In this document: piece after piece, positions 451 to 27,783 of the stretch | Numbering within the stretch: position 1 is the first letter of the stretch | How the letters are laid out: every line of letters begins with the position of its first letter | NCBI GenBank assembly: GCA_021777835.1 | Contig: JAJYDC010000026.1 | Span: forward strand, 1 to 33,922 | Direction: 5' to 3' | DNA: 33,922 nt | Source: Bacteroidota bacterium | GTDB lineage: Bacteria > Bacteroidota > Ignavibacteria > Ignavibacteriales > Ignavibacteriaceae | The notes under the pieces: model-generated | Seen by the model: only the letters and a program-made list of their open reading frames with translations | Database searches by the model: none | Told to the model about the DNA's origin: nothing | Translations under genes and position numbers: made by a program

Positions 451-1626
451 ATGAAAACGATAGTAACAATGCCGGGAGACGGCATTGGAAAAACTGTACT
501 ACCCGAAGCAATTAAGGTATTAACAGCGGCGGGATTTGCCGCTGAGTATATCCATGCAGATATTGGCTGGGATTTTTGGTGCAAAGAGGGAAATGCTTTA
601 CCGCAAAGAACAATTGACTTACTCGAGGCACATAAGATAGGATTATTCGGAGCTATAACAAGCAAACCGAAAGATGCAGCCGCAAAAGAACTTGATCCTT
701 CACTTCAGAATAAAGGTTACGTTTATTTTAGTCCTATTGTTGGTTTGCGTCAGCATTTCAATCTTGATGTTTGCATTAGACCCTGCAAGTCATTCAAAGG
801 AAATCCTCTAAACTTTATAAGAAGAAATAAAGAAGGATTCGATGAGCCATTAATAAATACTGTAATATTCCGTCAGAATACTGAAGGTCTATATTCAGGA
901 GTTGAGTGGACAAATCCGCCAAAAGCTGTACGTAACGCATTCGAGACACATCCAAAGATGAAAGCTTTCAAAAATGTACCGGGCGAAGACCTTGCAATAT
1001 CTACAAGAATAGTTACTCGCAAAGCCTGCCAAAGAATCATTCGCGAAGCATTTGAATATGCAAAAAAATTCGGATATACGAATGTAACTATTTGCGAGAA
1101 ACCAAATGTACTTAGGGAAACTTCAGGAATGATGTTTAACGAAGGTAAGAAGATTGCAAAAGAATATCCCGGTATTCAACTTTGGGATACAAATATAGAT
1201 GCACAAATGATGTGGCTTACTAAAAATCCTGAGATTTATGGCGTAATTGTAGCAGAGAATATGTTCGGAGATATAGTTAGTGACGGGTTTGCTGGGCTTG
1301 TAGGCGGACTAGGGTTTGCATGCAGCGCAAATATCGGACAAGACGTAGCTATATTTGAGCCTACGCACGGCTCAGCGCCAAAGTATCAGGAATTAAATCC
1401 GCCGATAGTTAATCCTATTGCGATGATTTTAAGCGCTTGCATGATGCTTGATCATATCGGAGAAAATAAAATTGCAGAAAACATCAGAGCCGCAATAGCT
1501 AAAGTTATTGAAGAAGGTAAGGTTAAGACTTACGATATGATGAAATTAAAAGGCAGCGCCGATGTATTTAAACAAGGTGCTTGTACAACATACGAGTTAA
1601 CCAACGAGATTATAAAGAATCTGTAA
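451..1626 (+). CDS. icd: NADP-type isocitrate dehydrogenase family enzyme
   Basis: This is a 391-residue beta-decarboxylating dehydrogenase, expected to interconvert isocitrate and 2-oxoglutarate with CO2 in the cytosol. Visible landmarks are PGDGIG at 8-13, R100, R110 and R141 (spaced like the isocitrate-binding arginines 119, 129 and 153 of E. coli Icd), the FRQNTEG motif, and EPTHGSAPKY around 303-312. K311, Y312 and V320 match the NADP determinants of E. coli Icd; NAD-dependent isopropylmalate and homoisocitrate enzymes usually have Asp-Ile there. The substrate-loop signature Ser-x-Asn is Ser94-Pro-Ile96, so the usual Asn is missing and substrate choice is less certain. An in-frame TTG at 436 would add five residues, but ATG 451 has GAGGGG 7 bases upstream and is preferred. 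It is the first gene of the citrate cluster. A homoisocitrate-type activity remains possible given the LYS4-like neighbour. Confidence 0.85.
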   Translation: MKTIVTMPGDGIGKTVLPEAIKVLTAAGFAAEYIHADIGWDFWCKEGNALPQRTIDLLEAHKIGLFGAITSKPKDAAAKELDPSLQNKGYVYFSPIVGLRQHFNLDVCIRPCKSFKGNPLNFIRRNKEGFDEPLINTVIFRQNTEGLYSGVEWTNPPKAVRNAFETHPKMKAFKNVPGEDLAISTRIVTRKACQRIIREAFEYAKKFGYTNVTICEKPNVLRETSGMMFNEGKKIAKEYPGIQLWDTNIDAQMMWLTKNPEIYGVIVAENMFGDIVSDGFAGLVGGLGFACSANIGQDVAIFEPTHGSAPKYQELNPPIVNPIAMILSACMMLDHIGENKIAENIRAAIAKVIEEGKVKTYDMMKLKGSADVFKQGACTTYELTNEIIKNL

Positions 1627-1719
1627 GTAAAATATAAATCAAACGAGAGAAGAAATAATAACAAAATAATTATCTTCATCTCTTTTCTTTCGTCTATTTA
1701 TAAACTTCAAGAAAGTGAA

Positions 1720-2253
1720 ATGATGAAAGCCGAAGTAATTGAAATCTGGCCGGAAATAAATTGGATTGAGAATAACGAACTAAAAGAAAAAGTTCTTGAT
1801 TGCTGGGTATATGCAATTGAAAATAGCGTATTATCCATTGAAGACCTAAAAACTATTCCCTTCTCATTGCTTCTTAAAGAATGTAAAATTCCTTTCATTA
1901 TACATAAAAGAACAGCGGTACAATTGTCAGTTGAGATGGCAAAAATTATGAAGAATAATTTCGGCGACGAGATTAAAATCAATATGGACTTCCTAATTGC
2001 CGGTGCTATTTTAATTGATGTGGGTAAACTTTTAGAATACGAGATAAAGGATGGGAAACTAACTACAAGCGCAGCGGGTAAGTTAGTCCGGCATCCGTTT
2101 AGCGGACTAGCCATTGCCGATAGGTTTAATTTACCTGCGGAAGTTCAGCATATTATTGCAACTCATTCCAAGGAAGGAGATTTCGGTCAACGAACAATTG
2201 AATCCATAATTGTTCATCATGCTGACTTTGTAAGCTTTGACCCTTTTAAATAA
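1720..2253 (+). CDS. HD-domain protein with altered HD dipeptide
   Basis: This 177-residue protein has the all-helical HD fold seen in metal-dependent phosphohydrolases. Recognisable elements are H62 in an early helix, a segment around 95-103 that aligns with the canonical LLHDxGK motif, R124-H125-P126, H144 and H149, and H167-H168-A-D170 near the end. At the core motif the usual His-Asp is Ile99-Asp100 (codons ATT GAT), so the metal site may be damaged or altered. It starts 93 bases after the isocitrate dehydrogenase and ends 14 bases before the homoaconitase, so it is almost certainly co-transcribed. Two adjacent ATGs (1720, 1723) are possible starts. No substrate can be named. A regulatory or metabolite-repair role in the citrate cluster is inference only. 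Confidence 0.65.
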   Translation: MMKAEVIEIWPEINWIENNELKEKVLDCWVYAIENSVLSIEDLKTIPFSLLLKECKIPFIIHKRTAVQLSVEMAKIMKNNFGDEIKINMDFLIAGAILIDVGKLLEYEIKDGKLTTSAAGKLVRHPFSGLAIADRFNLPAEVQHIIATHSKEGDFGQRTIESIIVHHADFVSFDPFK

Positions 2254-2267
2254 AGCGGAGTAAAAAA

Positions 2268-4259
2268 ATGTCACAAACATTAATAGAAAAAATTGCACAA
2301 AGATATGCTGTCGGATTGAAAAGGAATCAAATGGTTCACAGCGGAGATTATATAGCAATCAAACCAGCCTACGTAATGACTCATGATAACACCGGAGCAG
2401 TCATACCTAAATTTCTTAGCATCCATTCCAGCAAGAAAAGCAAACAGGATCTAAGAATATTTAATCCCAAGCAAGTTGTTTTTACGCTGGATCATAATGT
2501 ACAGGATAAAAGTGAAAAAAATTTAGCGAAGTACAAGAAGATAGAAGAGTTCGCAAAAAAAATGGGAGTCGATTTTTATCCTGCAGGCAGAGGGATCGGA
2601 CACCAGATTATGTGTGAAGAAGGCTATGCTTACCCAGGTAAGATGGTAGTTGCTTCAGATAGTCATTCAAATATGTACGGCGGACTTGGCTGCCTTGGAA
2701 CACCCATAGTAAGAACCGACGCGGCATCAATATGGGCAACAGGAAAAACATGGTGGCAGGTACCCCCTATTGCAAAAGTAATCCTAAAAGGGAATTTAAG
2801 ACCGGGTGTAACGGGGAAAGATTTAATAATTGCACTTTGCGGATATTTTAATAATGACGAAGTATTAAATCATGCGATAGAATTTTCAGGAGACGGCATT
2901 CATAATCTAACCATTGATGAAAGACTTACAATCGCAAACATGTCAACAGAATGGGGTGCTTTAGCCGGAGTATTTCAAACTGACCAGGTAACTATAAACT
3001 GGCTTAAGAATAGAGCCAAGCAAATATCTTTAAGAGGTTTAGCCGGTGTACCGTCAGACAGCGAAGGAAATGGACTGCATCCCAGATTGAATATAAACAG
3101 AATTCATAAACTTGAAAGTAATATTTGCAAAGCGGATGACGGAGCGTTTTATTCACAAGAGTTAACAATTGACCTTAACTCAATTCAACCGGTAGTATCT
3201 GGACCAAATACTGTTAAAATAATGACTACCCTTTCAGAGATTAAGTCAAAAGAAATTAAAATTAATAAAGCATATTTAGTTTCATGCGTTAACAGCCGGG
3301 TAAGTGATCTCGCGGAAGCAGCAGCAGTTGTAAGAGGAAAGAAGGTCGCAGAAGGGGTGAAGTTTTATATTGCCGCTGCATCAAAGGAAACGCAGTCGGA
3401 AAGCGAAAAACGCGGAGACTGGCAAGCGCTTGTCGAAGCCGGTGCAATTGCATTACCTTCTGGCTGCGGTCCATGCATTGGATTAGGAGAAGGATTGTTG
3501 GAGGACGGAGAGGTAGGAATTTCAGCAACGAACAGAAACTTTAAAGGCAGGATGGGTTCGCCTAAAGCTGAAACTTATTTAGCCTCGCCTGCAGTAGTAG
3601 CCGCTTCGGCTATTGCAGGAAAGATAGATTATTCATGGGAATATTGCCCGTGCAAGGTTACCGGTGATATAAAATTAAATAAAAGAACTAACGACAAAAT
3701 TTCTAAGGTTGAAATTATTAAAGGCTTTCCTAAAAAAATTGAAGGTGAATTAATATTCTGCCATCAAGATAACTTAAATACTGACGGCATCTACCCAGGC
3801 AAGTATACTTACGTTGATGATTATACGCCTGTTCAGCAGGCTAACGTAGTCATGGAAAATTATGACCAGAATTTTAAAACACTTGTGAAAGAAGGCGATA
3901 TACTTGCCGCCGGATTCAATTTTGGCACAGGCAGTTCGCGAGAGCAAGCAGCAACAGCAATTAAATATAAAGGGATTAGTTTAGTAATTGCTGGATCGCT
4001 GAATGAAACGTATAAAAGAAACGCTTTAAATAACGGACTTCTGTTAATCGAATGCCCGGATCTAATAAAAGATTTAAAGAAGAAATTTGGCGCTGAAAAG
4101 CTGACGGTAAAGACAGGCAATCCAATTACAGTAGATTTCATTCATTCCGAATTACTTTATATGCATAAAAAATACACTTTCGATCCTGTAGGTGAAGTAG
4201 CTCAAGAATTAATTGTTTGCGGCGGATTGGAAGGCTGGGTTGTAAGGGCAATGGAGTAG
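2268..4259 (+). CDS. Single-chain homoaconitase/aconitase of the fungal LYS4 type
   Basis: This 663-residue protein belongs to the aconitase superfamily, [4Fe-4S] hydro-lyases that move the hydroxyl of citrate-like acids. C340 (VSCVNSR), C400 and C403 (SGCGPCIG) are the expected cluster ligands. The swivelling C-terminal domain carries GTGSSREQAATA around 553-564. From memory the whole chain follows yeast homoaconitase LYS4 almost motif for motif: RGIGHQIM, ASDSHSNMYGG, TKTWW-like ATGKTWWQ, NNDEVLNHAIEF, ISATNRNFKGRMGS, NTDGIYPGKYTY and the C-terminal GGLEGWV. The loop that reads SFARI in aconitase is SLNET here, as in LYS4-type enzymes. GGAG at 2257-2260 precedes the ATG. The neighbours are Icd, PrpD and citrate lyase. 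Either a homoaconitate/homoisocitrate or a cis-aconitate/isocitrate step is possible. The family call is firm; the substrate is not. Confidence 0.88.
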   Translation: MSQTLIEKIAQRYAVGLKRNQMVHSGDYIAIKPAYVMTHDNTGAVIPKFLSIHSSKKSKQDLRIFNPKQVVFTLDHNVQDKSEKNLAKYKKIEEFAKKMGVDFYPAGRGIGHQIMCEEGYAYPGKMVVASDSHSNMYGGLGCLGTPIVRTDAASIWATGKTWWQVPPIAKVILKGNLRPGVTGKDLIIALCGYFNNDEVLNHAIEFSGDGIHNLTIDERLTIANMSTEWGALAGVFQTDQVTINWLKNRAKQISLRGLAGVPSDSEGNGLHPRLNINRIHKLESNICKADDGAFYSQELTIDLNSIQPVVSGPNTVKIMTTLSEIKSKEIKINKAYLVSCVNSRVSDLAEAAAVVRGKKVAEGVKFYIAAASKETQSESEKRGDWQALVEAGAIALPSGCGPCIGLGEGLLEDGEVGISATNRNFKGRMGSPKAETYLASPAVVAASAIAGKIDYSWEYCPCKVTGDIKLNKRTNDKISKVEIIKGFPKKIEGELIFCHQDNLNTDGIYPGKYTYVDDYTPVQQANVVMENYDQNFKTLVKEGDILAAGFNFGTGSSREQAATAIKYKGISLVIAGSLNETYKRNALNNGLLLIECPDLIKDLKKKFGAEKLTVKTGNPITVDFIHSELLYMHKKYTFDPVGEVAQELIVCGGLEGWVVRAME

Positions 4260-4342
4260 CGGGGGAATCGGAACGATGGGATTATTAAGTATCACCGGAT
4301 AAAACAAAAAAATACTTTATGAAGGCAAATTTATTATATACG

Positions 4343-4358
4343 AACCGTTTAAAAGGTT
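4343..4358. promoter_or_regulatory. Dyad upstream of the PrpD-type gene
   Basis: In the 124-base gap before the PrpD-type gene, AACC (4343-4346) and GGTT (4355-4358) flank a central TTTAAA, giving a 16-base near-palindrome with one mismatched pair. It ends 25 bases before the ATG at 4384, with the ribosome binding site GAGGAAAA in between. It could be an operator or just a chance palindrome in AT-rich DNA. Confidence 0.2.
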
Positions 4359-4383
4359 GAAAGAAAATTGAGGAAAAACTAAT

Positions 4384-5832
4384 ATGGGTAAATCTATCTC
4401 CCGCCAAATTTCAGAATTTGCTGTTAAGCTTAAGTTCGAAGACCTGCCGAAAGAAGTTATACAAGAGGTAAAAAGATTTTTGTACGATTCAATTGGATGC
4501 GCTTACGGCGGTTACCGGACTAAGGACGTTAATATTCTCCGTGATTTATATAAAAATATGGGCGGCGCTGCTGAGTCGACCTTAATAGGTTTTGGAGATA
4601 AATTACCTGCTGTTAATTCATCTTTAATAAATTCATTAATGATAAGGGCGCTCGACTTTAACGATATTTATTGGAAAGAAGATCCATCTCATCCATCTGA
4701 TTTAATTCCTGCCGCACTCGCTGCCGGTGAGGTTATGAATGCCTCTATGAAAGACGTAATTACCGCAATTGTTCTAGCGTATGAATTTGAGCAGAGACTT
4801 TGTGAATTTGCTATTCCCGGTATTCGTGAACGTAAGTGGCATCATGCAACTTTAACACAATTTGTTTCTCCAATTGTAGCAGGAAAGCTTTTAGGGCTGG
4901 ATGTTGATCAGATGGTAAACGCTATCGGAATAAGCGGTAGTCACAATCATACAATAGGGTGCCCCACTGCAGGCAAGTTGACGATGATGAAAAATACTGT
5001 TGATCCGTTTGCAGTTCAATCAGGAGTGCTTGCAGCTATGATGGCTAAAAATGGCTACACAGGCACTGAAGCTGTGTTTGAGGGTAAAGAAGGTTTTATG
5101 GATTGCTTCTTCGGCTGGGATGCAAAGGATCAAAAGTTAAACCAGGTAAAAATGAAAGGCAGAGAAAGTCTTGATGAATGGAAATGGGATATAGAAAAAT
5201 TAACAGGCAATCTCGGGAATGGGTTTAAGATACTCGAATGCGGGATGAAAGCATTTCCTACCGAGGCATTGACTCACACGCATATCACCGCAACATTAAA
5301 TGCCGTTATTAAAAACAATATTACTTATGATAAAATTGAATCCGTAACCGTAACAACAATTGCAAGGGCCTGCGATATATTGTTTGATCCGCATAAATAT
5401 CACCCAGATTCAAGAGAAACTGCAGATCATTCTCTCCCCTATTGTATTGCCGCCGCATTAGTAGACCATAAGGTAACCACACAATCCTTCTCAGATGAAA
5501 AAATGAAAGATCCGAGAATATGGCAGGTAATAACTAAAATAAAAGGGAAAGAGTCTTTAGAGTTCGAGAAAATGTTCCCTGAAAAGCAGCCTTCAAGAGT
5601 TGTAATAAGAACAATTGACGGGAAAGAATTTTCTGAATATCTAGAATATCCAAAGGGCGATCCGAGAGAGCCAATGACATTGGAAGATCTTGAAAATAAA
5701 TTTAATGCATTATCAGCGGGAGTACTTTCTTCTAGTGAGCAAAATGAAGTGAAAAATATGATATTCTCTTGCGATGAAATGTCTGTAAGAGATTTTATGA
5801 ACAAACTAACAATTTTGAATTTTGAATGTTGA
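4384..5832 (+). CDS. MmgE/PrpD family dehydratase (2-methylcitrate/citrate dehydratase-like)
   Basis: At 482 residues this is the normal size for the MmgE/PrpD family (E. coli PrpD has 483). These cofactor-free enzymes dehydrate 2-methylcitrate to 2-methyl-cis-aconitate, and PrpD can also dehydrate citrate. The family hallmark RALDFNDIY around 88-96 and the following HPSD (103-106) are present; the long N-terminal helical domain and the C-terminal lid domain are both complete. The ATG follows GAGGAAAA. The last residues (from Leu478) are encoded by the tandem heptamer array at 5815-5870, and the stop codon lies inside it. No methylcitrate synthase or methylisocitrate lyase is nearby, which argues against a plain propionate pathway and for a role on citrate or a homologue together with the LYS4-like protein. 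cis-Aconitate decarboxylase is a related family member and cannot be excluded. Confidence 0.82.
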   Translation: MGKSISRQISEFAVKLKFEDLPKEVIQEVKRFLYDSIGCAYGGYRTKDVNILRDLYKNMGGAAESTLIGFGDKLPAVNSSLINSLMIRALDFNDIYWKEDPSHPSDLIPAALAAGEVMNASMKDVITAIVLAYEFEQRLCEFAIPGIRERKWHHATLTQFVSPIVAGKLLGLDVDQMVNAIGISGSHNHTIGCPTAGKLTMMKNTVDPFAVQSGVLAAMMAKNGYTGTEAVFEGKEGFMDCFFGWDAKDQKLNQVKMKGRESLDEWKWDIEKLTGNLGNGFKILECGMKAFPTEALTHTHITATLNAVIKNNITYDKIESVTVTTIARACDILFDPHKYHPDSRETADHSLPYCIAAALVDHKVTTQSFSDEKMKDPRIWQVITKIKGKESLEFEKMFPEKQPSRVVIRTIDGKEFSEYLEYPKGDPREPMTLEDLENKFNALSAGVLSSSEQNEVKNMIFSCDEMSVRDFMNKLTILNFEC

Positions 5833-5870
5833 ATGTTGAATGTTGAATGTTGAATTTTGAATTTTGAATG
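5815..5870. repeat. Tandem heptamer array TTGAAT(T/G), 8 copies
   Basis: Eight perfect-length units of seven bases follow without gaps: TTGAATT, four TTGAATG, two TTGAATT and a final TTGAATG. The array begins inside the 3' end of the PrpD-type gene, supplies its last codons and its stop (TGA at 5830-5832), and runs into the spacer before the citrate lyase genes. Because the unit is not a multiple of three, copy changes near its start could alter the C-terminal tail, though a TGA soon occurs in each frame. Confidence 0.9.
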
Positions 5871-5986
5871 TAAGGCAATTAAATTGATAAATTTTAACAT
5901 GGAAAATATTTTGAATAAAAAACAAAAATATTATTTCCAATTCTATAAATGATATTATTCATCTGAGCCCCATTTCAGGATAATTT

Positions 5987-7180
5987 ATGCAAACAAAAAA
6001 CTTAATGTCGTTCGCCGGTAAACGAGGAAACCAAATTCGGTCGGATTGTTATTTTGAAATTGAATTAACCAAATCAGGCGGAATTGATTTGGATATAAAG
6101 AGTAAGGTATTATCGCTTTATGGAGATTCAATAAAAGAGCAAGTGCTTGAGATGTGCAATTATTTTGGCTTAAAAAATGCTAAAATATTGTTGGAAGATA
6201 GCGGAGCATTACCATTTATTCTTGCCGCACGTTTTGAGCTAGCAGTAAGAAGACTTAATAAGAACCTGGATAAAGAATTTCTTCCTGAGTTTAATAAAAA
6301 TAATCTTTATCGTACTTCAAAGGACAAAATTAGAAGAAGCCGGCTTTATTTACCCGGAAATGAGCCGAAATTTTTCCTTAATGCGGGACTGCATCAGCCG
6401 GACGGAATAATTTTGGACTTAGAAGACAGTGTTGCGCATACTGAGAAAGATGCCGCACAATTACTAGTGCGCAATGCTTTAAGAAAAGTTGATTTTTACG
6501 GATCAGAACGAATGGTAAGAATAAATCAATTACCCCGCGGTCTTGAAGATTTGAAATTTATTGTGCCTCATAATGTACATGTAATACTTATTCCCAAGTG
6601 TGAGTCACGTGAACAAGTAATCGAAGTAGAAGCTGAAATCAATAGAATTAAAAAGGAATACAATATTTCAAGCGATATTTTCTTAATGCCGATTATTGAA
6701 AGCGCATTAGGAATTATTAGAGCATACGAAATAGCTACTGCTTCAAATAATGTATGTGCATTAACGATAGGACTTGAAGATTATACTGCTGATATAGGGA
6801 CACAACGGACTCTTGAAGGGAAAGAAAGTTTTTTTGCAAGATCAATGATAGTAAATGCAGCTAAAGCAGCCGGAGTTCAAGCGATTGATACTGTATTCTC
6901 AGACGTAGGCGATATGGAAGGTCTCCGCAACAGTGTTTTAGAAGCTAGGTCACTAGGCTTTGAAGGCAAAGGCTGTATACATCCGCGGCAGATTCCCATA
7001 GTGCACGAAGGATTTGCTCCGACAATTGATGAAGTTGATAAAGCAAAAAGGATTGTTGATGCGTTTAAGGAAGCAGAGGCAAAAGGTTTAGGGGTAGTTT
7101 CAATTGGAAGTAAAATGGTTGACGCACCTGTAGTTAAAAGAGCTATAAGAATCCTGGAATTGTCTGAAGGTAAAAAATGA
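5987..7180 (+). CDS. citDE: Fused citrate lyase gamma (CitD acyl carrier) and beta (CitE) subunits
   Basis: This 397-residue protein joins two parts that are normally separate. Residues 1-95 follow CitD, the small acyl carrier protein of citrate lyase (SFAG start, then a GID-LDI-K segment, a YGD-IKE helix and a DSGALPFILAAR end). Residues 113-395 are a complete CitE lyase: RSRLYLPGN, LDLEDSVA, R178 in MVRIN, E238 in IIESALG, D265 in GLEDYTAD, and GFEGKGCIHPRQ. CitE cleaves citryl-ACP to acetyl-ACP and oxaloacetate. In CitD the prosthetic group sits on the first Ser of the ES-S/G-D motif; here the matching stretch is Arg18-Ser19-Asp20, so the attachment Ser is either shifted by one or replaced. 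CAGGA at 5976-5980 precedes the ATG, and the stop overlaps the CitF start by 4 bases. No CitC, CitX or CitG is in the window. Confidence 0.85.
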   Translation: MQTKNLMSFAGKRGNQIRSDCYFEIELTKSGGIDLDIKSKVLSLYGDSIKEQVLEMCNYFGLKNAKILLEDSGALPFILAARFELAVRRLNKNLDKEFLPEFNKNNLYRTSKDKIRRSRLYLPGNEPKFFLNAGLHQPDGIILDLEDSVAHTEKDAAQLLVRNALRKVDFYGSERMVRINQLPRGLEDLKFIVPHNVHVILIPKCESREQVIEVEAEINRIKKEYNISSDIFLMPIIESALGIIRAYEIATASNNVCALTIGLEDYTADIGTQRTLEGKESFFARSMIVNAAKAAGVQAIDTVFSDVGDMEGLRNSVLEARSLGFEGKGCIHPRQIPIVHEGFAPTIDEVDKAKRIVDAFKEAEAKGLGVVSIGSKMVDAPVVKRAIRILELSEGKK

Positions 7181-8727
7181 AATTAATTGTAAATGAAGCA
7201 GGTCGATTTGTACCTGAAAAAGTAAACGGTGTAAAGCAAGTCCCTTTCAAAGGAGTAAATAAATTTAAGCCTCGAGGGAATAAAGCAAAACCTGCAATAA
7301 GGTCATGCGCTGACTATCCAAGCAACGGAAATAAGTTAGTAAAAAATCTTAGAGAAGCGTTGATGCGATCAGGTTTGAAAGACGGCATGACAATTTCGAC
7401 GCACCATCATTTAAGAAACGGCGATGTAATAACTAATATTCTATTTGATACTATTCATGAAATGGGAGTAAAGAACATCCGCTGGTTTCCAAGTGCTTCC
7501 TTCCCTGTTCATGAATACCTAATTAAATATTTAGAAGACGGAACAATCCATCATATTGAAGGAAGTATGAACGGACCGCTCGGCAAGTATACAACCGAGG
7601 GGAAAATGAAAGGCGTCGGTGTATTAAGGTCGCATGGAGGGCGCTACCAGGCGGTACAAGACGGAGAAGTCCATATTGATATTGCAGTAATAGCTGCTCC
7701 GACTGCTGATAATTTCGGTAATGCAAACGGCGTAAACGGAAAGTCATCTTCGGGTTTAATTGGTTTTTCATTGGTGGATTCGGAGTATGCAGATAATGTA
7801 ATTGTAGTTACGGATAATCTTGTTTCTTTCCCTTGCGTGCCATGGCAAATACAGGGGAATAATGTTGATTATGTTGTAAAGGTCGAGACACTTGGAGACG
7901 CTTCGAAGATAGTTTCCGGAACAACGGAGGTTACCAAGTCACCCGATAGACTTTTAATTGCCGAATACGTCGCCCAGTTTATTGATGAAGCAGGGATAAT
8001 GAAAAATGGGTTCTCTTTTCAGGCTGGCTCAGGAGGTACGAATTTAGCATTTGTCCTTTATTTAAAGGAGAGAATGAAAGCAAAAGGGATTAAAGCAAGA
8101 TTTGTTCGCGGAGGAAGTACAAAATATTTAGTGCAGCTATTAGAAGAAGGATTAACAGATTATATACTTGACGGGCAGACATTCGACCTGGAAGGTGTAA
8201 GAAGTATGCGTGAAAACCCTAATCATGTAAATACAAGTCCTTTTACAAGTTATAACTTTCACGGTAAAGGAAACTTTGCTTCTATAGTTGACGTAGCAGT
8301 TTTAGGAGCGACGGAAGTTGATGTTAATTATAATGCCAACGTAGTAAGTCATTCCGATGGATATTTACTGCACGGTATAGGCGGCTGGCAAAATTGTTTA
8401 TATTCGAAATGTACAATACTTGCAGTACCATCTTTTAGAGACAGGATCCCGGTAATAATTGATGAAGTAACCACGCTATGCGGTCCTGGCGAGTTGATAG
8501 ACGTTATAATTACCGAAAGAGGAATTGCAATTAATCCTCTCAGAAAAGATTTAATAAAGGCTATGAAAAATACACAGCTTCCTATTAAATCAATAAGGAA
8601 AATTAGGGATGAAGTAGAAGAAATATGCGGAGCACCCAATAAGCCAAGATTAAATAAGAATAAAGTAGTTGCAGTTATTAAGTGGGTTGATGGGACGTTG
8701 ATCGATTCAGTATTTCAAATTAAATAA
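7177..8727 (+). CDS. citF: Citrate lyase alpha subunit (citrate:acetyl-ACP transferase)
   Basis: This 516-residue protein is the CoA-transferase-like alpha chain of citrate lyase, which swaps acetyl for citryl on the acyl carrier. Family features are the early STHHHLRNGD block, FPSASFPVHEYL, the FVRGGSTKYLVQLLEEG stretch, the GQTFDLEGVRSM segment and a CoA-transferase C-terminal half ending in ITERGIAINPLR. Its length is normal for CitF. The ATG shares ATGA with the stop of the fused gamma-beta gene, so the two are translationally coupled and should be made in equal amounts. It is the last gene of the cluster; two strong hairpins follow. A citramalate lyase role is an alternative, since that enzyme has the same architecture. 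Confidence 0.88.
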   Translation: MKLIVNEAGRFVPEKVNGVKQVPFKGVNKFKPRGNKAKPAIRSCADYPSNGNKLVKNLREALMRSGLKDGMTISTHHHLRNGDVITNILFDTIHEMGVKNIRWFPSASFPVHEYLIKYLEDGTIHHIEGSMNGPLGKYTTEGKMKGVGVLRSHGGRYQAVQDGEVHIDIAVIAAPTADNFGNANGVNGKSSSGLIGFSLVDSEYADNVIVVTDNLVSFPCVPWQIQGNNVDYVVKVETLGDASKIVSGTTEVTKSPDRLLIAEYVAQFIDEAGIMKNGFSFQAGSGGTNLAFVLYLKERMKAKGIKARFVRGGSTKYLVQLLEEGLTDYILDGQTFDLEGVRSMRENPNHVNTSPFTSYNFHGKGNFASIVDVAVLGATEVDVNYNANVVSHSDGYLLHGIGGWQNCLYSKCTILAVPSFRDRIPVIIDEVTTLCGPGELIDVIITERGIAINPLRKDLIKAMKNTQLPIKSIRKIRDEVEEICGAPNKPRLNKNKVVAVIKWVDGTLIDSVFQIK

Positions 8728-26484: not shown

Positions 26485-27783
26485 CTATCTTTTTGCCAAA
26501 GGAACAAAGGAGCGTTTAGTCTCTCCGGTATAGATTTGCCTTGGGCGGTAAATCCTTGCGCCAGGAGTTTCGCGCATCTCTTTCCATTGAGCTATCCATC
26601 CGGGAAGTCTTCCGAGTGCAAACATTACTGTGAACATATTCGTTGGAATTCCCATTGCGCGGTATATTATGCCGCTATAGAAATCAACATTTGGATAGAG
26701 TTTGCGTTCAATAAAGAATTCATCTCTTAATGCTATCTCTTCAAGATTCTTAGCAATATCAAGCAGCGGATCATTTACGCCCATTTCTGCTAAGACCCTA
26801 TCTGCAGAGCCTTTTAGAATTTTAGCTCTTGGATCAAAATTCTTATAGACTCTATGACCAAAGCCCATCAGTTTGAACTTTGATTCTCTGTCCTTAGCGA
26901 GGGCAATGTATTTTTTATAGTCTCCGCCGTCGTTCTTTATTTTTTCAAGCATTTGAATTACCTGCTGGTTAGCGCCTCCGTGAAGCGGTCCCCATAGTGC
27001 GCAAATACCTGCTGATATTGAAGCAAATAAATTGGCTTCACTGCTTCCTACCATTCGTACAGTAGAGGTACTGCAGTTTTGTTCATGGTCTGCATGCAGA
27101 ATTAATAACAAATCCAAAGCTTCTTCGACGACTTTAGGAACTTCGTAGCTTTCGGACGGTACTGCAAACATCATGTGTAGCATATCAGCGCTATAGCTAA
27201 GGTCGTTTCTTGGATAAATATATGGTTGGCCAATTGATTTCTTATATGAAAAAGCGGCAATGGTTTTTAATTTTGCAAGTAGTCTTACTATATTCAGTTC
27301 AATGTCAGCACCATAACCTGCTTCAGGATAAAATGCAGTTAATGAACTAACCATAGCAGAAAGAATTCCCATCGGATGAGCAGTTGGCGGAAAACCTTCA
27401 AAGAATTTCTTCATGTCTTCATGTATCAAACTGTGGTGTGTTAATTGGAATTGAAATCTTTCTAGCTCAGCTTTATTAGGCAGATGTCCAAATATTAAAA
27501 GGAAGCTTACGTCAATAAAGTTAGATTTTTCAGCTAGTTCTTCAATTGGATATCCGCGGTAGCGAAGTATTCCTTTTTCTCCGTCAATAAAGGTAATTGC
27601 GCTTTGGCATGAGCCTGTATTCCCATAGCCGGAATCAAAAGTAATTGCGCCAGTCTTATTCCTTAACTGGGAGATATCGATTCCTACTTCTGATTCGGAA
27701 CCAATTGTAATTGGCAAGTCAAGCTCTTTATCATTTAGAAAAAGCTTGGCTTTATCGGTTAGAGTTAAATGTTCGTTATTCAT
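26485..27783 (-). CDS. gltA: Citrate synthase (type I)
   Basis: This 432-residue enzyme condenses acetyl-CoA and oxaloacetate to citrate in the cytosol. The catalytic residues H268 (GPLHGG), H310 (GFGHRVYK) and D367 (PNVDFYSG) are all present, with H233 in the HADHEQNCSTSTVR block. An N-terminal beta-strand domain (1-60) and length match the hexameric, E. coli-like type. GGGG at the end of the leader lies seven bases before the ATG. It stands alone on its strand, more than 500 bases from the efflux genes, and is 18 kb from the citrate lyase cluster. Type I enzymes are often inhibited by NADH; whether this one is cannot be read directly. Confidence 0.97.
   Translation of the reverse strand: MNNEHLTLTDKAKLFLNDKELDLPITIGSESEVGIDISQLRNKTGAITFDSGYGNTGSCQSAITFIDGEKGILRYRGYPIEELAEKSNFIDVSFLLIFGHLPNKAELERFQFQLTHHSLIHEDMKKFFEGFPPTAHPMGILSAMVSSLTAFYPEAGYGADIELNIVRLLAKLKTIAAFSYKKSIGQPYIYPRNDLSYSADMLHMMFAVPSESYEVPKVVEEALDLLLILHADHEQNCSTSTVRMVGSSEANLFASISAGICALWGPLHGGANQQVIQMLEKIKNDGGDYKKYIALAKDRESKFKLMGFGHRVYKNFDPRAKILKGSADRVLAEMGVNDPLLDIAKNLEEIALRDEFFIERKLYPNVDFYSGIIYRAMGIPTNMFTVMFALGRLPGWIAQWKEMRETPGARIYRPRQIYTGETKRSFVPLAKR

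Follow-up and report, generated by a model that had tools for sequence, protein, structure and literature searches.

The window analysed here, a stretch of 33,922 nucleotides, is a complete contig (JAJYDC010000026.1, labelled C25) of the genome of an Ignavibacteriaceae bacterium (GCA_021777835.1, an assembly of 3.64 Mb that is 98.4% complete), which we call G000; the labels of other genomes, loci and contigs likewise begin with G, L and C. Its forward strand carries a cluster encoding an Icd-family protein, an HD-domain protein, a LYS4-type aconitase-family protein, a PrpD-family dehydratase, a CitD-CitE fusion and CitF. Judging from sequence comparisons, we propose with about even confidence that these proteins form a branch linking 2-oxoglutarate, citrate and oxaloacetate, which would exist beside the ordinary enzymes of the tricarboxylic acid (TCA) cycle, include a coenzyme A (CoA)-dependent variant of citrate lyase and probably operate in the reductive direction. 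The preliminary description of this DNA had placed Icd, an HD protein, a LYS4-like protein, MmgE/PrpD, CitD-CitE and CitF on one strand, and six open reading frames (ORFs) were indeed confirmed between positions 454 and 8727 (+); the one correction is that CitD and CitE constitute one fused ORF, in which the family search identified a CitD-like acyl carrier protein (ACP) domain and an HpcH/HpaI domain. The features are:

454..1626, +, Icd family, 390 aa from ATG; PF00180 (Iso_dh), 264 bits
1720..2253, +, HD-domain protein, 177 aa; TIGR00277, 33 bits (cut-off 27.6)
2268..4259, +, LYS4-type aconitase-family protein, 663 aa; homoaconitase model TIGR00139, 869.7 bits (cut-off 529.9)
4384..5832, +, MmgE/PrpD-family dehydratase, 482 aa; PF03972/PF19305, N- and C-terminal domains
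5987..7180, +, CitD-CitE fusion, 397 aa; CitD-like at about residues 1-95, CitE at about 114-394
6038..6040, +, codon of Arg18 of the CitD-CitE fusion, which aligns with residue 14 of E. coli CitD
7177..8727, +, CitF, citrate lyase alpha / acyl transferase, 516 aa; TIGR01584, 510.3 bits (cut-off 501.45)

Conservation and co-occurrence of the gene set

With the LYS4-type protein as query, a sequence scan identified 276 relatives, in metagenome-assembled genomes (MAGs) titled Ignavibacteria, Melioribacter, Zixibacteria, Calditrichota, Bacteroidetes and a few others, and 80 loci were kept for all locus counts. The complete six-gene set is present in 31 of the 80 and has the order of the window on one strand in 30; L072 contains the six genes rearranged. 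Recurrence of the gene order in relatives, which the preliminary description had named as a point to check, is therefore found. The combination HD-Acn-PrpD (Acn denotes the LYS4-type gene) occurs in 11 further loci and Acn-PrpD in 8, with 13 of these 19 titled Zixibacteria or Zixiibacteriota. Acn stands alone in 14 loci, and since more than 1 kb of sequence is available downstream of it in 13 of them, PrpD is mostly not adjacent there. The HD ORF and PrpD are equally frequent (55/80 each). Among the ORFs listed, the inserts between cluster genes differ from locus to locus, so it is the set and its order that are kept and not a compact operon. Chance gene order is ruled out by the 30 ordered loci together with the co-occurrence of the genes where they are unlinked. 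Evolutionary remarks made here are based on identities and presence only.

Searches of 149 genomes of the class with PF00330, TIGR00139, PF03972, PF04223, PF01874 and PF08218 identified the LYS4 type over cut-off in 33 genomes, which belong to the families f1 (8/8), f2 (16/16) and f3 (9/10). Of the 33, 32 also have PrpD and CitF, and the sole exception, G036, is without both. Outside the LYS4-type genomes PrpD exceeds the cut-off in G069 and G128 (with a fragment in G010), and CitF in G069, G089, G108 and G138 (with a fragment in G142). The Fisher p values for co-occurrence of LYS4 with PrpD and CitF are about 6e-28 and 4e-26, with kinship ignored. In the three f3 genomes inspected, the cluster is split yet retained, with HD-Acn-PrpD at one site and CitDE-CitF at another: Icd adjoins CitDE-CitF in G012 (L167/L168) and G082 (L169/L157), and in the single-contig G030 (L164/L155) about 0.4 Mb separates LYS4-PrpD from CitDE-CitF, with no Icd match in either stretch. 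We also searched the genomes behind the named loci, covering 50 of the 80 loci for aconitase and 38 for PrpD. PrpD was present in 32 of the 38; eight of the LYS4 genomes searched are Calditrichota-titled MAGs, and seven of these have it on a different contig. Downstream of the LYS4-type gene of L010 (G158, titled Ignavibacterium), one of the genomes without a PrpD match, only pieces of CitF are found, at 44-50% identity and in shifting frames, perhaps because the assembly is poor or the CitF is of another kind.

Family f22 has neither a LYS4 type over cut-off nor PrpD according to the class genome searches. In two of its three sampled genomes, G138 (L156) and G108 (L166), the order is nevertheless kept with other aconitase-family enzymes, namely 2-oxoacid:ferredoxin oxidoreductase genes - Icd - HD - a 602-aa aconitase-family protein - HacA-like (421 aa) - HacB-like (162 aa) - CitDE - CitF. 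The L166 stretch has room for only two oxidoreductase ORFs, which were named by likeness to L156; the third genome, G126, gave no CitF match. The 602-aa protein of both loci keeps the cysteine motifs, and in NRNFxGR its second Arg is replaced by Lys. The HacB-like subunit and the LYS4 type share a PGKYTY loop, where the small subunit of M. jannaschii homoaconitase has PYLRT. In our reading the HacAB pair corresponds to LYS4 and the 602-aa protein to PrpD, so that two enzymes for one isomerisation would have been retained though one of them was replaced by an unrelated fold; the 602-aa enzyme, encoded beside HacAB, is a candidate half-enzyme dedicated to citrate or isocitrate. The oxidoreductase subunits match 2-oxoacid families (VorB/OAFO, KorB), a match that does not fix the particular 2-oxoacid. 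In G036 the alpha and beta subunits of a 2-oxoacid oxidoreductase likewise directly precede Icd-LYS4 in a gene run. The substitute cluster with its oxidoreductase therefore favours the two-enzyme logic, with 2-oxoglutarate as the end point.

Proteins of the predicted aconitase step

The LYS4-type protein exhibits the motifs CVNSR, GCGPC, NRNFKGR and GSSRE together with the substrate loop PGKYTY, and its score lies well over the homoaconitase cut-off (see the feature list). The preliminary description had suggested a search of the genome for a homocitrate synthase, and no candidate was found in G000: PF00682 matches only two proteins, both in the leucine/isoleucine region (LeuA and a CimA-like protein, named by eye); LeuC/LeuD/LeuB are located on C86 (names LeuA-LeuD read from translations). 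The name "homoaconitase" is therefore probably misleading in this genome. Lys4p from yeast and LysF from Aspergillus interconvert only homoaconitate and homoisocitrate, not homocitrate, and the other half of the reaction is carried out by aconitase (PMC3556520; literature is cited by PMC number, from excerpts). The TIGR00139 cut-off is passed in 33/149 genomes; these proteins may have a connection with the origin of fungal LYS4.

None of the three PrpD equivalog cut-offs is reached by the PrpD-family protein of the cluster (87.4 vs 950; 83.6 vs 575; 65.3 vs 458), and its nearest sequence in the PDB is cis-aconitate decarboxylase. In E. coli PrpD, which turns over citrate, W110, G111 and I331 form the methyl pocket, and W110V/G111T/I331L as well as its double mutants shift the enzyme towards citrate (PMC9468356). 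The corresponding positions are P/S/L in 51/51 cluster PrpDs (the window and 50 loci, lengths 440-520 aa); in a distant alignment this resembles the citrate-shifted mutant V/T/L, which is suggestive of a similar preference. The pattern L-D-F-N-D ... H-P-S-D is kept in all 51, bar one Phe -> Tyr.

An ordinary aconitase (best E below 1e-130, open frames of 754-928 aa) was not found in G000, where PF00330 matches only the LYS4 type and LeuC. In G149, G150, G152 and G153, however, a conserved ~705-aa gene has the ordinary aconitase as a neighbour, no more than about 3 kb away. The G000 copy of this gene is followed by just 79 bases before contig C1 breaks off, and the aconitase may thus be absent from the assembly only. 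We have consequently dropped the argument that G000 has no other aconitase, and the search for one suggested in the preliminary description ends with a negative that may reflect a gap. Among the genomes behind the named loci, an ordinary aconitase-level match is present in 30/50 and absent from 20/50, some of the latter (e.g. G162, G165, G172) containing a further aconitase-family protein of 610-650 aa. Since 31 of the 33 LYS4-type genomes of the class (exceptions: G000 and G082) have the ordinary enzyme, the LYS4-PrpD pair does not generally replace it, and a pair that usually forms a parallel route suggests a separate direction, condition or substrate. The division of the aconitase step between PrpD and LYS4 put forward in the preliminary description thus gains from the genetic coupling, the substitute cluster and the pocket residues, but not in the sense of a general replacement for aconitase.

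The best NCBIfam models for Icd are AksF2/AksF/LEU3_arch, each below its cut-off; the curated cut-off for isocitrate dehydrogenase (IDH) is not reached either (best IDH model 234.3 vs 510). Icd has the motif YFSPIVGLRQ, whereas a second IDH-family protein of G000, encoded on C17 and apparently an ordinary NADP-IDH by motif and length, has IRSLNVALRQ. For the HD protein, an AlphaFold2 (AF2) model with a predicted local distance difference test (pLDDT) score of 90.8 identified YhaM (9h3f; TMq 0.68, E 4e-5) as the best PDB match, and no PDB sequence match was obtained at E 0.1; a role in regulation or nucleotide hydrolysis would be a guess.

CitD-CitE, CitF and the acyl carrier

CitF exceeds the citrate lyase alpha cut-off, and its solved relatives (2hj0, 1xr4) are named putative citrate lyase alpha. 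The citE and citD cut-offs are not reached by the fusion (TIGR01588 299.5 vs 443.4; TIGR01608 51.3 vs 63.5), whose CitE part also matches RipC with 163.5 bits (cut-off 375). Ser14 of CitD is the attachment site of the prosthetic group. At this position the 42 fusions (the window and 41 others collected by a motif rule) have Arg in 40, Lys in 1 and a gap in 1, and Ser is present in 5/5 controls (E. coli, E. faecium, M. plutonius, K. pneumoniae and A. thermophilum; a sixth, Azospirillum B510 (L182), is left out of the alignment). The context is L-E-S-x-D in the control CitDs and S-D-C after the Arg/Lys in the fusions; in the numbering of the window protein, a 35-sequence alignment has no variation at S19, D20 and C21 and hardly any at R18. 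The gap row is L177 (G137:C1, a single-contig genome), where stops at about 8215-8365 break the N-terminal frame of CitDE; matches to the remaining five genes are complete or almost complete. The rule missed a CitDE-CitF pair in L165 (G089:C78:38000-56000), from a genome without the LYS4 type, in which RSDC was recognised by eye.

The maturation genes searched for are likewise not found. CitG (PF01874) has no match in any of the 149 genomes, G000 included, with a positive E. coli control; CitX was not searched for. For CitC, PF08218 has no match in G000, and 74/149 genomes match it at only 20-32.3 bits, i.e. without a full CitC. These weak matches are mostly on frames of 159-225 aa, which we take to be CoaD-like nucleotidyltransferases. 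In organisms with the canonical enzyme the prosthetic group is made by CitG with CitX (PMC10798043), and in the related malonate system MdcC carries it on Ser25 (PMC5534430). MdcD-MdcE can use malonyl-CoA instead of the carrier-bound form (PMC5534430), which offers a precedent for free CoA in place of such a prosthetic group. Because CitD has no prosthetic-group serine and the searched maturation genes were not found, we propose free CoA as the acyl carrier. The main alternative is a modification of S19 or C21. In the AF2 analysis of CitDE (pLDDT 89.6 for the best model, 77-81 for the other four) the closest structures are lyases acting on free CoA (malyl-CoA lyase, CLYBL), but as no citrate lyase beta/ACP complex is among the 50 matches listed, this is no evidence for the use of CoA. 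The statement in the preliminary description that the route ends in citrate lyase agrees with CitF over its cut-off and proved too simple for a complex in which CitD lacks the canonical serine and neither CitG nor a full CitC was found.

Pathway, alternatives and known systems

According to our proposal, Icd would interconvert 2-oxoglutarate + CO2 and isocitrate, the LYS4-type iron-sulphur (Fe-S) protein would catalyse the isocitrate/cis-aconitate half only, and the PrpD-family protein the cis-aconitate/citrate half. Cleavage of citrate to oxaloacetate and an acetyl unit would then fall to CitF and the CitD-CitE fusion, with free CoA as the acyl carrier, CitF acting as an acetyl-CoA:citrate CoA-transferase, CitE as a citryl-CoA lyase and the CitD domain serving only for docking or to hold CoA. 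The net direction would be 2-oxoglutarate -> citrate -> oxaloacetate + acetate, i.e. reductive, which appears likeliest because the opposite direction is already open to the ordinary citrate synthase, aconitase and IDH. We infer all the substrates, the carrier and the direction from the gene content, gene order, co-occurrence, residue changes and the genes not found. A reductive role in these bacteria is plausible: ATP-citrate lyase is reported missing in an excerpt on Melioribacter roseus (PMC3534657), and L018, titled Melioribacter roseus, has the full cluster. The narrower formulation, that we are dealing with a citrate-cleaving variant of the reductive TCA cycle in which the aconitase step is split between PrpD and LYS4 and citrate is cleaved by CitDE/CitF on free CoA after loss of the covalent group, is one that we advance tentatively and with considerable doubt.

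Several observations weigh against the proposed branch. Co-occurrence is confined to three families of one class, hence the Fisher values overstate independence; no PrpD match was found in six of the 38 LYS4 genomes behind named loci (G158, G174, G175, G183, G185, G187), and G036 retains Icd and LYS4 without PrpD or CitF. Among the ORFs listed, inspected by eye, no oxidoreductase gene was recognised upstream of Icd in the Ignavibacteria loci. Icd has Ile for the Asn of the second IDH in the S-x-N motif, and Icd and the LYS4 type score highest on homoisocitrate dehydrogenase and homoaconitase models. The activity of LysF is 0.99 U/mg with citrate and 1.88 U/mg with isocitrate vs 7.5 with homoisocitrate (PMC3556520), so the LYS4-type protein alone may act on both. 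With the ordinary aconitase present in nearly all LYS4-type genomes of the class, a second citrate-isocitrate route looks redundant, which makes another substrate (homocitrate) possible. The serine of RSDC, one residue off the canonical site, could be modified by other enzymes. For the heterotrophs of anammox granules an excerpt reports expression of alpha-ketoglutarate:ferredoxin oxidoreductase (KFOR) and pyruvate:ferredoxin oxidoreductase (PFOR) without ATP-citrate lyase, except in CHB1, and judges CO2 fixation unlikely (PMC5460018); L047, titled Melioribacteraceae CHB1, has the full cluster, which would be an argument against a reductive cycle in this organism should the two CHB1 be identical.

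Cleavage of supplied citrate by the same C6 enzymes is the main alternative to the reductive role. Citrate or cis-aconitate, taken up as a carbon source or disposed of as overflow, would yield oxaloacetate and acetate, plus, by way of PrpD, LYS4 and Icd, 2-oxoglutarate/glutamate, in line with the service of citrate lyase in the citrate catabolism of lactic acid bacteria (PMC10798043) and with the MFS (major facilitator superfamily)-like gene in 3 loci without cit genes and the CstA-like one in 8 (names by eye). We regard it as unlikely, given that no transporter was recognised in the cluster of the window and that a 2-oxoacid:ferredoxin oxidoreductase adjoins Icd in two lineages. The high scores on homoaconitase and AksF models, the second IDH-family protein in G000 and the ordinary aconitase of most relatives would all suit a C7 pathway, in which CitDE-CitF act on homocitrate (made up of an acetyl unit and 2-oxoglutarate), PrpD and LYS4 isomerise it and Icd leads to 2-oxoadipate in lysine/aminoadipate metabolism. 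This appears rather improbable: G000 offers no candidate homocitrate synthase outside the PF00682 matches of its leucine/isoleucine region, no aminoadipate-pathway gene was recognised by eye among the neighbouring ORFs, the oxidoreductase beside Icd suits 2-oxoglutarate better, and a DapF-like ORF about 6 kb upstream of Icd in L016 points to the diaminopimelate route.

Two further explanations were considered. That the LYS4-type protein is the only and complete aconitase of G000, with PrpD as an accessory, would agree with the PF00330 matches in that assembly, but both kinds of enzyme are present in 31/33 LYS4 genomes of the class, PrpD co-occurs in 32/33, and C1 ends 79 bases past the ~705-aa gene whose neighbour is an aconitase in four near relatives; we consider this reading very improbable. 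Hardly any weight, and slightly less, goes to an itaconate/citramalate route, with PrpD as cis-aconitate decarboxylase and CitE-CitF as citramalyl-CoA lyase and CoA-transferase. IRG1 belongs to the PrpD fold family, the nearest PDB sequence of the cluster PrpD has the required activity, and CitE matches RipC; however, that match stays below its cut-off whereas CitF passes the citF cut-off, the six genes include no itaconyl-CoA hydratase, and Icd would be left unexplained.

The proposed branch shares elements with several known systems. In the methylcitrate cycle PrpD dehydrates and an Fe-S aconitase-type enzyme rehydrates, a pairing that resembles the one proposed here, but the cluster has neither PrpB nor PrpC among its six genes and Icd instead of a lyase, its PrpD lies below all three PrpD cut-offs matched, and the methyl pocket is changed. 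Variants of the reductive TCA cycle employ ATP-citrate lyase, citryl-CoA synthetase and lyase, or a reversed citrate synthase. They have in common with the proposed branch the cleavage of citrate downstream of reductive 2-oxoglutarate carboxylation; the cluster would achieve it via the CitDE/CitF pair and with a two-enzyme aconitase step. As in the fungal alpha-aminoadipate pathway (PMC3556520), a LYS4-family enzyme for the hydration half would act with a second enzyme for the dehydration half, followed there by homoisocitrate dehydrogenase, whereas in the cluster the partner is a PrpD-family or 602-aa aconitase-family protein, CitDE-CitF are attached and the substrate is probably C6. Homologues of CitD, CitE and CitF in the order D-E-F link the cluster to the citrate lyase genes CitCDEFXG of E. 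coli, Klebsiella and lactic acid bacteria (PMC10798043), from which it differs by the CitD-CitE fusion, the replacement of Ser14 by Arg and the CitG and full CitC that were not found. In the literature searched (excerpts of open-licence PMC papers) we found no description of this enzyme set. If the proposal holds, the aconitase step is run by two dedicated proteins in widespread, largely uncultured bacteria, and citrate lyase exists in a form independent of CitG, CitC and a prosthetic group. Ignavibacteria such as Melioribacter roseus would then have a substitute for the missing ATP-citrate lyase, and bacterial "homoaconitases" would be half-aconitases.

Further genes were encountered in the window and around the relatives of the cluster. 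The window itself contains, as context:

26485..27783, -, GltA-like citrate synthase ORF, 432 aa; named by reading the translation only

A CstA-like membrane protein of ~544 aa (named by eye) is present in 8 loci, between Icd and HD wherever the locus includes both (L010, L013, L025, L029, L034, L036 and L061, with L067 containing a family member). The MFS-transporter-like gene, also named by eye, lies between the LYS4-type gene and PrpD in L045, L049 and L050, all without cit genes. Small ORFs of ~120 aa are repeatedly inserted between the cluster genes in many loci (e.g. L005:9490-9849, L011:9507-9962, L014:8538-8912) and resemble four-helix-bundle / 23S rRNA insertion proteins. In L030, from a Calditrichota MAG, the LYS4-type gene has a further aconitase-family gene about 7 kb away (L030:11563-13506(-)), whose divergent product is 28% identical. 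Finally, L171 (G075:C75) from a further family, f21, contains HD and a contig-cut LYS4-type gene that is 56% identical.

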